Source of the DNA: Nannochloropsis oceanica
Taxonomy: Eukaryota; Sar; Eustigmatophyceae; Eustigmatales; Monodopsidaceae
Direction of reading: 5' to 3'
DNA: 64,000 nt
Assembly: GCA_004519485.1 (NCBI GenBank)
Contig: CP038107.1
Location: 744,001 to 808,000, forward strand
Made by a program: the position numbers and the translations under genes. Under the pieces are notes generated by a model. That model was not told where the DNA came from. It was given only the letters and a program-made list of their open reading frames with translations, and searched no databases. Shown here in pieces: positions 1 to 35,043 of the stretch; position 1 is the first letter of the stretch; every line of letters starts with the position of its first letter.

Positions 1-2700
1 CTCCTTTTCCCTTCACTTTCTCGCCCCCTTCCCCCCCGATCCCCAACGCCTGCATAGATGCCAGCAATAACCCTTCCTCATCCTCCATGGTTTGCTTCCT
101 CATGGGCGGATCAGGAGCCTCCTCACATATTCTGGCCAACAGCCCTCCTCCTTTCCCCCCGCCGTGTTCCCTACTCCCTTCCTCCACACACAATGCATAC
201 GCCCTTGCGAACTCCTGCCGGATGTGCCGATGCTTTCCTTCCTTCAAAAAATGCGTTACGTTATACCACGTCTCAAACGGATCTTCGACGGCCAACCTGG
301 AATTCACCGCCCACCCATCCTCCTCCGCCTTCTCCTCCTTCCTCAGCAACCCCCCCATCCTCACACTAAGCACATGTTCTCGGTAGTCAAATTCCCAAGT
401 GTAATACTGGAAAAACGTCACCAGCAACGCCCCCACCGATGCCTCATTTCTCTTCGCATATTGCTTCAACAACTCTGCTCCCCCTCCTTCCCTTTCTCTG
501 TCCTCTGTGTAAAAATATGTGTCAACTTCTACCCCCTCCAAGGGGTGCTTTACCAGCACATGGGGCAAATGCCTTCGTCCTCTCAGCAATTCCCGTCTAT
601 CCACCTCCCTCCCTCCCCAATCAGGGGGCAACAACTGCAAATTTGGCACAACCGGCACCGGCTCTAGTCCGTCTCTTCCTCCCTTACCCCCACCCCCAAC
701 GCCCGCCGCAGCACTCTGCAGAAAATGCAGTACCATCAATATGTACGCGTACGACGATAACGTCCCTCCACTTGCATTGTTTATCTTCCGGGCACGGGCC
801 CAATGCTTCACTGTATATGCCAAAGCCCGAACGCGGGGATCGATGCGACTGTACTGGTGAAGTAACTGGGTGTTTCTCAATGCCAGGGGATTCTCCACGG
901 AGATGTCGCAATCCAAGCCGGTCTTGGGGTCCGTGAAGAGCACAATCGGGATTCGTGCCGTCGGCCTCGGAACCACGTCCTCCATCCCTTCCTCCTCCAA
1001 CAAGGCCGCCAGCGCCTCAATCATGTCCCCTGCTCCTGCTGCACCTCCTGCTCTTGCTCCTCCCTCTCCTCCTTCTCCAACGTTTGGAAACGTGACACAC
1101 ATATCCAGATCCGCCGCGTCGTTTCCGAAATTATTGGCACTCGACCCAAACACACGTAAGCGAGTACCTGGCGGAAATATTTCGTCACCGAGAGAAGGGA
1201 GCAACGCCTCAATCCTCTGCCTCACTTCCTCTCGGGTTTGGAAAAAAGTGGCGGAAGGGTAAAGGGCGGGAAGGAGGGCATTCATTTCCACAGTCAGAGC
1301 TTCAATCACGGAGGGAGGGATGGCATCAAGAGGGGTGGGAATAAAATCCACCTGCCACTGCTCAAGGTAATGCGCGTGCTTGGCCGCCGGAGAGGGGAAA
1401 AATTCTTCATTGAATGGACACCAGAGTGCTTCTGCTCCCAGGAGGAACGCCCGTTGACCGGCATCAAGACACGAAAACACAAATCGATTCCCTAACGCCG
1501 CCTGCAACACTGAGGCCACCCCTGCTATGATTGGATATCGACTCCTCGTCTTCTCTCCTTCCTTCCCCTCTTCCTCCCCACCCTCTTTGATTTGCTTCAC
1601 CGACCACTGCAGGCATGTCCACAGCAAGGTGTGAAATTGCCTCCCTGGCTGCATGGGCCGTAATTCCTTTAGCAACACCCCCAGCTGTGACAAACCCGCC
1701 ACGACCGTCTTCCTCTCCCTTAACTGAGTGGAAATCAACCGTAAATTCCCCTCCACGTCCCTCCCCTGCACCTCCACAACAAAAGCATGGGATGTGCCAT
1801 GGGTAGCGGCGGGGTCTCCACCATCAAACATTCTGAAAACAAAAACACCTGCTGACCGGGGAGCGTAGAATGTCAGCGTGCCTTTGGCGGAGGAAGGGCT
1901 GGAGAGGGGGCCCGAAGGAGGAGGAGGGGGAGAGGGTTTGATGACAATGGTTTTGCTGATGACGGCGTTGGTGTTGCTTGCTACCCCCAGCCGAAACAAG
2001 GCAATTTCCGGCTGCTCGAGCTGGTAGAGGAGGGAATACGGCGCTTCCCATTGCACCATCAAATCCGCCTTGGGCCTCACCCGACCTGTCCAAGCACGCG
2101 CAGGTGTGAGAGATGAGCGATACTCTTTCTCCTCCCCGCAATCCCTCCCGCCATCCCGCCCTTACGTATTCGCTTCGCTGTTTCTCGTTATCGTATTCCC
2201 CGCCCTCCCTCCATTCCTCCCTCCATTCCTCCCTCCCTGCTCACCTGCTTGTTGTCGACTATACGTATCCACCACCCACAATCTCCCAACCTGGCCCTTC
2301 GTTACCCTTCGAGGCCTGAAAATTCTCCCTCCTTCTTCCGCTGTTGTGGTTGTTGTTGTTGTCGTTGCTGCTGCTGTTATCGGCGGTGTCGTCGTTATTG
2401 TTGTTGCTGCTGCCGCTGGAGCAGAAAGAGACTCGGTCGGGATGTCGTGAGAGGGAGGGAGGGTGGAAGGGGGGGGGGGTAGACCTTGGAGCAGCATTTG
2501 TTGGTATTGCAGGAGAGGGGAGGAGAGGGGGGAGGGAGTGGAGAAGGAGGAGCCGGACAGAGCGGTGAGGGGGCTGTGGGTGCTATGGCTGATGCTGTTG
2601 TTGCTGTTGTTGTTGCTGCTGCTGCTGCTGCTGCCATCGCCGCCCATTAACAATTGCTGAAGCAGGCTCGAGGGTCCCTCCGAATGTTGCTGCTGTCTCA

Positions 2701-2738
<38 letters not shown>

Positions 2739-3904
2739 AGTAGGTGCTGTAGCTGCTGCAATTGCTGTAGCTGCTGCCATTGCTGTAGCTGATTAATCCG
2801 TGAAGGACAATCGTAAGGAGACCCTTCCCCTAAAAGCGGAGGCAGGGATGGCGACTGCTGTTGCTGTTGATTGTACAGCTGCTGCTGCTGCCGCTGCTGC
2901 TGTTGACTGTACAGCTGCTGCTGCTGCTGCTGGTATTCTCCTCGCTGTTGGAACAGTTGGTGGTGTTCTCCATTTTCTCTATCCCGCCCCCTTCCCCCAG
3001 CACCGCTCCCCGGCAAGCCTCCTCCTCCCCCTCCCTCCCCTCCTCCTTCCCCTCCTCCTGCCCCGGGTCCCAACAACCCGGCCAACAAGTGAGGAGGAAT
3101 AGGATTCGGCGGATGCATAAACATGTGAGGATGCGGTGGCCCTTCCCCCATTTCAAAACTTCCTCCTCTTCCCTCTCTTCCTCCTCCAGATGGCGACATC
3201 CCCATCATGCCATGGCCTGTATGCAAGTGAGAAGGGACATTCAACATCATATGTGACTGCGGTGGCTGCAGCTTTTGCTGCCCCTGCGGTAGGTAAGCGA
3301 AAGGGGAAGGTTGCTGCTGCTGCGATATCGATGAGGCGCCTTGTTGTTCTTCCTGCGGGAGAAAAGGGGGCAGCTGATAGTTGCCAAGCATCATATTTCC
3401 CAACAGGTTTGGTGGTGGTAGCGATGGAGCTTGCCCTCCTTCAACCACTCCTCGCCCTCCTGGCCCTTGTTGCCCCGAAGCTTCTGCTGCCATTGCAGAG
3501 AAGAGATCAAAGCCTGGCAGATTATCTTCACCATTCCCCAAAAGTCCCATCGAGTGGGGCGGCTGCTGGGGCTGTTGCTGTTGGTGTTGCAGCTGCTGCT
3601 GCTGCTGCTGCTCTTCCCCTCCATCTCCTCCTCCACCTCCGCGTAAAGCCTCAAGGACCGAGATAGAAGAGCGTGGTGGCTGCTGTAGCTGATGCTGCTG
3701 TACCGCAAAATCCTCGCCGCCATTCTGCTGCTGCTGCTGTTGCTGCTGTTGTTGTTGTTGCGGGGGGGGGGCCGTTCCAGCTTCTCCACCCCCTCCGTCG
3801 AGGAGCGCTCGAGCCGTGGCCAGGAATGTCTGTTGATCATTGTCCCGTTGATATCTATTTTGAGCCTCTACTGCCACGGGGTGTCCTTCTCGCACGAGCT
3901 TCAT
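1..3904 (-). CDS. Cid1-type terminal uridylyltransferase / non-canonical poly(A) polymerase, 3' end cut by window
   Basis: Two exons, 3904-2245 and 2085-1, joined by a 159-base GT-AG intron in phase 1; the frame is open to base 1, so the C-terminus is outside. About 1249 residues are visible. Residues 1-550 are low complexity, rich in Gln, Gly and Pro with several long Gln runs. A beta-rich segment follows the intron (residues 555-660), vaguely SKICH-like. The catalytic domain has FGSSANNFG at about 866, DLD at 879-881 and the third acidic residue D947, the nucleotidyltransferase triad. Then come NPLALRNTQLL, WARARKINNASGGTLSSYAY and a PAP-associated region with SVGALL, EDPF and QEFARAYAL. 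Family members add U or A tails to RNA 3' ends; which base is used here cannot be seen. The ATG at 3904 is the first in frame after a stop. The family call is secure; the role of the Gln-rich arm is unknown. Confidence 0.88.
2605..2775 (-). repeat. CAG/CTG microsatellites encoding poly-Gln
   Basis: Dense CTG-rich tracts (CAG on the coding minus strand) encode Gln runs in the N-terminal arm of the nucleotidyltransferase. Related tracts lie at about 2871-2932, 3588-3612 and 3726-3762. They are interrupted by CAA and CTA-type units, so they are imperfect. Confidence 0.85.
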
Positions 3905-32302: not shown

Positions 32303-33265
32303 GGGAGGGAGGGAGGGCAGGAGGAAGGGGTAATTGTTGATAGGGGGAGATGGAGAAATTTTCGTTGTTGTGGCAAGCAACGGCAGTAGCAGCAGTAGCT
32401 ATTGCAACACCAGGCTTTCCCCCAAATTATTCATTGTTTCGATGGATTACAGCTGGATTACAGACAGGAGGAGGGGGAGAATGAGGAGGGGGAGGAGGAA
32501 GGAGAAAAACAAAATAAGAAGAGGAAGAAGAGGGAGAGTGGAGAGTTTGGTGAAAGGGAGGGGTAAAGGGGTGTACATCACGGGGAGGTAGACGAGCAGG
32601 AGGAGCAGGAGCAAAGAGCTGAACGGGGAAAGGAGGGAGGGAAGGTGAGACGAAGAAGGATGGTTTTGAATATAACAACGACAACATAACGTGGAAAAGA
32701 AATAACACACCAGGGAGAGCGAAAGGAAGAGAGTTGAGAGTCTTTGTCTACTGGCTGTCTAGCAGTATTTTGCTTCCTTCTTCACCGTATCTTTTTCTTC
32801 TGGTTGCTTTGTAAGTGTAAGTGTGTGAGTGTGCGTGTGCCTCCACGTCAACCCCCCTCCCCTTACACTACCTGGCTTCATTTATATTTCCTTTCCACTA
32901 TTGAAAGCACCTTGTGTCTGATAGTCATGCCATGGACGACCCTTCTTCGATGCGTTCTGCCGTTTTTATAGCCTGCGACAATTCTTGCCGTTCCTTTACC
33001 TGCCCGTCTCGTACTCATTCTACCATCTATCCCTGTCCGTGTGGACGGGTCAGTGGAAACCAACGTGACCACTTGTCCTGCACACACACCCTTCCCGCTC
33101 CTCCTCACCCATCGTCCCCCTTCAGCTTTTTACTAGCTCTTGCTCGCCAACAACCATCCCATCCCTCCCTCCCGCCCTCCCGCCCTCCCGCCCTCCCGCC
33201 CTCCCGCCCTCCTCCTTCTCTAAAGCTCTTCCCTCCTTCCCTCCCTCCATCCCTCCATTTCTTCT
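32303..33265. other. convergent intergenic region
   Basis: 3' zone of Rab5 and the ER STI1 gene. GGGA units follow the Rab5 stop, then A/G-rich sequence to about 32730, then mixed sequence. A CCCGCCCT minisatellite lies at 33163-33212. No gene is supported. Confidence 0.6.
33163..33212. repeat. CCCGCCCT minisatellite
   Basis: About five 8-base units, G-rich on the minus strand and 50-100 bases beyond the stop of the ER STI1 gene. Confidence 0.9.
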
Positions 33266-35043
33266 CTAAAGCTCGTCTTTCCCGCCGCCCGCCAGCAGCC
33301 CCTCTGCCGACTCAGGTGACTTGCCCATCTCTTCCCTTACGTTCTGCAAGAACTTCTCCACCTCCGCCGGGTCTTTTTGAAGCTCGTCCTGGTTTAGGGA
33401 GGGGGGGAGAGAGGAGGGGGTGAGAGGCGGTTTGTTGTTGCAGCCTCATGCATGTCCGTGAGGAAGATGTTCCTTTTGTTTGAGGAGGGGGGGGGGGGGG
33501 GGGGAAGGAGGGAGGGGTAAGCCGTACAATCGATGGAAAGAGGGAGGAAGGGAGGAAGGGAGCGAGGAAAGGAGGGAGGGCCTACCGCCATGATTTTGGC
33601 CTTTTCAATGACTTCGGCGAATAGAGGCGTCTCGGCCATCTTCTTCATTTCCTCCTGAAACGAGGGGTCGGCCATCTGAGGAGGGAGGAAAGGAAGGAGG
33701 GAGTAGAAGAGGGAAGGAGTGGGGGTTGGTGGTGTTAAAGGAGGAAAATGGAAAGAGTAATTAGTTGGATCAGACAGACAGACGGATGGACATCGGTCAC
33801 ACACGTTATCCCCACATGTGATTGCACACACACACCCCAGTCCCGTCACACTCGGTTATCCCAGGCGGTAATCCCACACACTCATCTCACACACTAATCC
33901 CAGTACACGCGCCAATCCCTCACGGTAATGCGATTATACCTTCACAGTCATCTCCCACAATTATCTTGTCTCATACACGCCAATCCCCCCCCACACACGT
34001 ACCAGCTCCTCCACCTCCTTTGCAAACTCCGGGTCATTGAGCATGTCCATGGTCTCCAGCACATCCGCGGGATTTGACATGGCCGAGGCCAGGGTGCCCA
34101 GCCCCATTTTTGTGGACGGGTTCTTCAAGTACCTTCGGGGGGGAGGGAGGAAGGGAGGGAAGGGAAGAGGGGTTGAGCGACTCAATGACGCACGCATGTC
34201 AAAGTACCCAGTGGCATCTTTGTCGACGGATTTTTCAAAAACCTTGGGAAGGGGGGGGGCTAGAGGAAAGGAGGGGCAGGGAAGGAGGGAGGGAGGGGCA
34301 GGAAAGGAGGGAGAGAGGGCAGGGAGGAGGGAAGAAGAAGCAAGGCAAAAGGGAGGAAACGAGGACAAGGAAGGAAGTAGGGAAAGGGAGGACTTACTCG
34401 TCGACTTGTTGCTGGAATTCAGGGTCATCCATCAGCTCTTCCACCTCATGCATAAACTCCGGGTCTTCCTGCAACTTCAACAGCTCTTTCATGGCGTTGG
34501 GGTTGTTGACTGCGAGGAACAGAAAGATAGGGAGGGAGGAATGGAGGAAGAGAGGTAAGCATAGGGGTCACAGCAGCGCGCATTTTTCAGGGCCGGATTG
34601 GAGACAGGAGGCAGCATGGATGGAGTGTGGGAAGTAGGAAAAGTTGTGGATGCGATGGCTCCATCACAGATCAAGGGACAAGCATCAAACTTCTTCTTGC
34701 GCAAAGCACTCCATGAGTCGTTATCTGCACATTATACACACATTCGTAACCGTCACCTTCGCCCGTCACATTACAAGGATCGATCATGCACAAGACAAAT
34801 AAATCTCATCATCAATCATCGTTACGTACAAAGGTCCTGGAAGGCCTGAAGTCCCATATTTGCACTCTCTTTGCCCGTGTATTCCGGTTTCTGCTCCGGC
34901 GCCTGCTCCTCTTGTACAGGTGTCCTTTTTTTGGCCAGCTTGCTAAACAGGGCGTCCGTAGAGGGGGTCACAAAGAGGAAGACGAGAAGCCCAAGGAGCA
35001 GGGCGATGGACCGGATGAAAGAGAGGGGGGCGGTGCGGCTCAT
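33266..35043 (-). CDS. ER-lumenal STI1-repeat protein with C-terminal KDEL
   Basis: Five exons: 35043-34830, 34509-34398, 34132-34003, 33675-33586, 33388-33266. All are GT-AG and every phase matches; 222 residues. The N-terminus is a signal peptide (FIRSIALLLGLLVFLFV, then TPSTDA). The mature part has successive Asn-Pro/Asp-Pro helical motifs: NNPNAMKELLKLQEDPEFMH, LMDDPEFQQQVDEYLKNP, NPADVLETMDMLNDPEF and MADPSFQEEMKKMAETPLF, as in STI1 domains of Hop, Hip and ubiquilins. The protein ends GGGKDEL and stop, a canonical ER-retrieval signal. No TPR or J domain is present. STI1 domains bind hydrophobic client segments, so a lumenal chaperone adaptor is a reasonable inference. A second, phase-compatible copy of the start of exon 3 lies in intron 2. 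Confidence 0.85.
34194..34242 (-). other. duplicated, possibly alternative exon in the ER STI1 gene
   Basis: Inside intron 2. After a CCCAAG acceptor the frame reads FLKNPSTKMPLGTLTC and stops at a GTGCGT donor. It parallels YLKNPSTKMGLGTL of exon 3 with most codon differences synonymous. Entry phase 2 and exit phase 0 equal those of exon 3, so it could replace exon 3 without a frameshift. Confidence 0.6.

Follow-up and report, generated by a model that had tools for sequence, protein, structure and literature searches.

The minus-strand gene running from position 35043 to 33266 of the window, the 64,000-nucleotide stretch of Nannochloropsis oceanica DNA analysed here (C10:744001-808000), is likely to encode an endoplasmic reticulum (ER)-lumenal STI1-like protein, to judge from a predicted product that combines a signal-peptide-like start, an array of Pro-capped helices and a C-terminal KDEL. 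Our preferred but still tentative reading is that this protein is a client-holding co-chaperone without tetratricopeptide repeats (TPRs), acting by a mechanism that we propose below. In cytosolic and plastid co-chaperones, STI1/DP modules serve as the client-binding parts and are mostly accompanied by TPR domains; repeats of this type are not commonly reported from the ER. If the reading is true, a TPR-less, ER-retained array would show that the module is able to function alongside lumenal chaperones, which carry different tails, and would provide a small, tractable candidate factor for ER protein handling in algae whose plastid sits inside that ER.

The gene model comprises five exons with agreeing phases and four introns, all GT-AG, and yields a product of 222 residues. 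Exon 1 (34830-35043) supplies the start codon, the signal-peptide-like segment (residues 1-31) and a linker covering residues 32 to ~71; its ATG is the sole one upstream of that segment within the open frame. Exon 2 (34398-34509) encodes the first three DP/NP-capped helices of a first repeat unit (unit A), exon 3 (34003-34132) the fourth segment of unit A and the first two helices of a second (unit B), exon 4 (33586-33675) the remainder of unit B, comprising the greater part of its final two capped segments, and exon 5 (33266-33388) a ninth, DP-capped segment, a Gly-rich tail, KDEL and the stop codon. Codon log-odds were trained on 2715 codons out of four frames of the same genome, with stop codons penalised. 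In the frame of the gene, exons 2-5 average +0.37, +0.36, +0.42 and +0.21; the other five frames of these exons all lie below zero (closest -0.005), and the 12 same-strand intron frames range from -0.35 to -0.71. Since the coding bias of exons 2-5 appears only in the chosen frame, exon 5 and the KDEL end are supported independently of the KDEL itself. Exon 1 scores -0.008, so codon bias speaks neither for nor against it. Retention of intron 4 would exchange the end encoded by exon 5 for a Pro- and Ser-rich tail. On the sequence evidence, then, the gene is real, and the original prediction, an earlier reading of this DNA from its letters, had the coordinates, strand, phase-consistent five-exon join and product length all correct.

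Both ends of the product carry features of an ER resident. Residues 1-31 are signal-peptide-like by inspection of hydropathy and of the -3/-1 residues: they contain R3 and R11 and a hydrophobic peak at residues 12-25, the 11-residue hydropathy mean reaches 3.31 and T29-x-A31 precedes the likely cleavage site. From residue 32 onward there is no second hydrophobic segment (best 19-residue hydropathy mean, 0.47). The C-terminus reads GGGKDEL followed by the stop in the coding-supported exon 5. A signal peptide and a KDEL end had both been claimed before, and both claims hold, the former as a signal-peptide-like start. KDEL-type retrieval is plausible in this organism on the basis of searches covering 29.26 Mb in 32 contigs of its own genome. 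Matches above cut-off to the KDEL-receptor family PF00810 lie on two contigs (C21 and C9), a BiP-like Hsp70 has a hydrophobic start and the C-terminus DDEL, and a thioredoxin-family frame ends in EDEKDEL. The product has one of the features expected of an ER-lumenal resident, a KDEL-type tail at a supported stop in a genome with KDEL-receptor matches.

Two further observations concern KDEL sequences. A 99-residue single-frame open reading frame on the minus strand (L040, C11:78419-78433) has a signal-peptide-like start, ends in VKDEL and is without a Pfam match. Within the window, a 22-base repeat (33215-33236 and 33261-33282, 86% identical and 46 bases apart) spans the KDEL stop codon of the present gene and recurs downstream of it.

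The mature part is dominated by a regular array. Nine [N/D/T]P caps occur at residues 74, 87, 100, 113, 129, 142, 155, 168 and 188, giving spacings of 13, 13, 13, 16, 13, 13, 13 and 20; the other xP dipeptides (residues 26, 41 and 206) fall outside the array. The 'at least four' Asn-Pro/Asp-Pro motifs reported earlier were therefore an undercount. A spacing of exactly 13 is found six times, and even two such spacings were reached in only 19 of 100,000 shuffles. The first eight capped segments form two tandem 55-residue units that are identical at 18 of 55 positions in an ungapped alignment, a score reached by none of 100,000 shuffles. The 13-mers are amphipathic, with positions 4, 8, 11 and 12 hydrophobic on average. 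Single-sequence models of exon 2 (helices at 3-11, 16-26 and 29-35; mean pLDDT, the predicted local distance difference test score, 74.8) and exon 3 (helices at 5-17, 21-31 and 34-42; mean pLDDT 72.3) position the predicted helices directly at the Pro caps. Cys is absent from the product, whose mature 191 residues include 43 acidic, 20 basic and 13 Met residues.

The array matches the STI1/HOP DP family, for which the expected fold is an open five-helix hand with a hydrophobic groove. The whole product scores 35.4 bits against PF17830 in three stretches, passing the curated cut-off of 29.1, and at E 0.1 none of six residue shuffles has a Pfam match, which indicates that composition by itself does not account for the score. 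The UBQLN1 profile touches residues 67-115 below threshold (21.6 bits, cut-off 27), and Pfam searches at E up to 10 find no ubiquitin-like (UBL) or ubiquitin-associated (UBA) domain in the product.

Several observations weigh against an ER-lumenal STI1 assignment. With respect to family, (i) the GerD domain PF17898 ties with PF17830 at 35.4 bits (cut-off 29.5); (ii) the registers in which the two units align to PF17830 differ (3-36 and 13-50), and neither unit by itself reaches the cut-off of either family; (iii) PF17830 also gives a weak match to one GerD sequence (19.9 bits), so that it may be picking up Pro-capped helices in general and (iv) PDB searches return nothing significant, either with the product as a whole (an SGT2-type protein is best at 0.059, with GerD next at 0.16) or with a two-unit profile (best 0.033, a designed protein). 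The product thus lacks what a firm assignment would call for, a better match to PF17830 than to unrelated helical families with one register per domain. With respect to location, KDEL followed by a stop shows no excess in the six frames of the genome. A KDEL-type pattern gives 40 matches (43 for the reversed control pattern), 27 of them stop-terminated; 20 of these 27 are [K/H/Q/N]DEL, including 10 KDEL, compared with 4 cases of KDEL-Trp, where three stop codons stand against one Trp codon. The KDEL signal is therefore carried by the gene's own supported frame behind its signal-peptide-like start.

The same 10-to-4 count would suit an ordinary secreted or membrane-tethered protein that bears KDEL by chance and whose STI1 match is overcalled. 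We consider this very improbable because chance would rarely bring together an exact KDEL, a last exon with coding support and a signal-peptide-like start; with ~10 cases per 2.7 million stops (the stop count being estimated), KDEL at a stop is expected at the order of 4 per million. The family label is only partly secure on this evidence. Given the equal GerD score and the register difference between the units, 'STI1-like' is an honest name, rather than proven STI1; of the STI1 type proposed in the original prediction, the match above the PF17830 cut-off stands and the exclusive assignment does not.

The GerD tie also raises the possibility that the protein is an ER-lumenal helical rope or scaffold, in which the 13-residue Pro-capped helices form an elongated, perhaps trimeric, GerD-like superhelix that clusters membrane or lumenal proteins and holds no clients. 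GerD is described as a trimeric superhelical rope in the accessible part of PMC11841064, and the even spacing of 13 residues would be in line with a repetitive scaffold. The NCBIfam model spore_GerD also matches at 35.1 bits, though this is well below its cut-off of 100 and the product does not qualify for the GerD family as a whole. Against these points, an STI1 domain encoded elsewhere in the genome (on C14) also has a 13-residue NP spacing by eye, and the sub-threshold UBQLN1 match is as expected of STI1 kin. In hhalign comparisons the two units align slightly better with five STI1 domains of the same genome (75.7%, 32 columns) than with one GerD sequence (46.9%, 24 columns), alignments of unequal depth. 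We regard a rope as unlikely.

In the co-chaperone reading that we prefer, the signal peptide would bring the protein into the ER, with cleavage near A31, and the KDEL tail would return it from the Golgi through the KDEL receptor, probably keeping it in the ER lumen. The mature part, acidic and free of cysteine, would consist of amphipathic helices with Pro caps, arranged as two STI1-like units in tandem; it has no TPR, J or ubiquitin domain. On the model of the STI1/DP domains in Hop and Sgt2, these helices would make one or two shallow grooves, lined with Leu, Met, Val and Phe, in which unfolded or translocating proteins could be held by their hydrophobic stretches. In the accessible part of PMC8010706 the STI1 domains of both proteins are described as helical hands holding hydrophobic segments, that of Sgt2 being termed a 'methionine-rich helical hand', and the Met content of the mature part is in keeping with this description. 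The protein may work beside BiP, and also beside GRP94 if present, without TPR-EEVD contacts. The lack of TPRs fits the lumen, since the BiP-like Hsp70 here ends in DDEL and not in EEVD.

A role in import across the ER-derived membrane of the plastid, suggested in the original prediction, is not borne out; nothing that we found points there. A related idea is that the protein is itself imported as a Tic40-like stromal or periplastid STI1 protein, with a bipartite presequence whose first half would be the hydrophobic start and whose transit part would be LFSKLAKKRTPVQ, and a KDEL that is coincidental or overridden. The residues after A31 (L-F-S-K-L-A-K-K-R) include four positive ones, and no acidic residue occurs before E45. 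Precedents for plastid STI1 proteins include Tic40, with two Hip/Hop/Sti domains and a membrane helix (PMC5296341, accessible part), and the Phaeodactylum STI1 protein B7FWW7, to which a proteome table assigns a chloroplast location (PMC8252717, accessible part). However, the presequence junction of the product is A-L-F (DA-LF) and not the plastid-type A-F, which is seen in the frame upstream of the C14 STI1 domain (SSAFVFP, joined by eye) and in one further frame of the genome (ATAFIS, by eye). The KDEL lies at a supported stop, where chance would seldom place it, and a second hydrophobic segment is absent, whereas Tic40 has its membrane helix. The product therefore has neither element of the Tic40 type, an A-F junction plastid presequence or a membrane helix beyond it, and we think plastid import improbable.

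A plastid-import role seems easier to argue for the separate STI1 gene on C14, which has a seeming plastid-type presequence and a PF17830 domain scoring 38.9 bits. This gene (L056, C14:131500-136500; frames 966-1556, 1579-2487 and 2570-3376, joined by eye) has a plastid-type start, MRRRNLGLVGLFWSGALSSAFVFP, and a C-terminal PF17830 domain, and is a possible Tic40 counterpart. It also contains recurring 'KxEL...EKxEF' segments, SAP/ARMET-like in appearance when judged by eye, and its middle frame is without a Pfam match. A six-frame PF17830 search of the genome returns seven matches, none of which is the present gene, whose exons are short. At another locus (L057, C12:270500-276000), a 287-residue frame at 2575-3438 has two PF17830 stretches (46.5 bits) and ends in the manner of the last domain of Hop; no TPR match is found within that frame. 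The ubiquilin-like frame of the genome is on C15.

The beginning of exon 3 recurs within intron 2 (34182-34242, minus strand), where a copy of its 3' splice site and 14 opening codons is found (34242-34200). Translated onward from the junction (G at 34242), the copy gives FLKNPSTKMPLGTLTCVRH and stops at 34182 after 19 residues. Over 13 codons it differs from exon 3 at 11 positions, 8 of them third positions, with 2 replacement codons; random placement of the differences gives such a silent pattern in 5.5 of 100,000 simulations (5.5e-5), in a post hoc test on one short stretch. It may stem from the recent loss of an exon or act as an alternative terminal exon, yielding a KDEL-less form. In the latter case two splice forms would exist, with the 3' splice site before 34242 yielding a short form that ends in DEFLKNPSTKMPLGTLTCVRH, lacks unit B and KDEL and would leave the ER, beside the KDEL form. 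The retained acceptor, the mostly silent differences and the early stop are consistent with such a switch; a lost exon or a duplicated stretch could also leave this trace, and we give the two-form arrangement a small chance. Joined to the ER reading, it leads to a bolder proposal that we hold quite doubtful: a dedicated family of ER-lumenal STI1-array chaperones, in which an alga bearing a red secondary plastid has moved the cytosolic DP client-binding fold, minus its TPR adaptors, into its secretory pathway, and intron-2 acceptor splicing decides whether the product is a KDEL form that is retained or a short one that is secreted.

The gene is flanked by a Rab-like GTPase (Ras, PF00071) on one side and, by eye, a WD-repeat gene on the other; a functional link with these neighbours was considered and dropped. 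A tblastn search of the own genome finds no paralogue: five matches fall on the exons of the gene itself, and the only other, weak at E 2.76, lies in an unrelated long frame. Pattern searches gave 18 and 215 matches in viral contigs and 306 in prokaryote contigs, none confirmed as a relative. No ER-located STI1 protein is described in the accessible parts of PMC13083928, PMC8010706, PMC8252717, PMC8616389 and PMC5296341, and one may still exist in print.

The product can be compared with several known systems. Like the STI1/DP domains of Hop (STI1), Sgt2/SGTA and Hip, it has Pro-capped amphipathic helices with Met- and Leu-rich faces and matches PF17830; unlike these proteins, it has no TPR match and bears ER signals. 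It shares tandem NP-capped helices and a region of profile similarity with the ubiquilin STI1 repeats, but its UBQLN1 score is below cut-off and it has no UBL or UBA match. Tic40 likewise carries its paired Hip/Hop/Sti domains in an organelle co-chaperone (PMC5296341, accessible part), but is anchored in the inner envelope facing the stroma, whereas the present product has a KDEL tail and no plastid-type A-F junction. The GerD core domain of Bacilli has DP-type helices and an equal Pfam score, but belongs to a bacterial spore lipoprotein, and the product is far below the NCBIfam equivalog cut-off. Finally, the hydrophobic start and xDEL tail are those of KDEL-tailed ER residents such as BiP and PDI, from which the product differs in having, in place of an Hsp70 or thioredoxin domain, an array of STI1-like helices.
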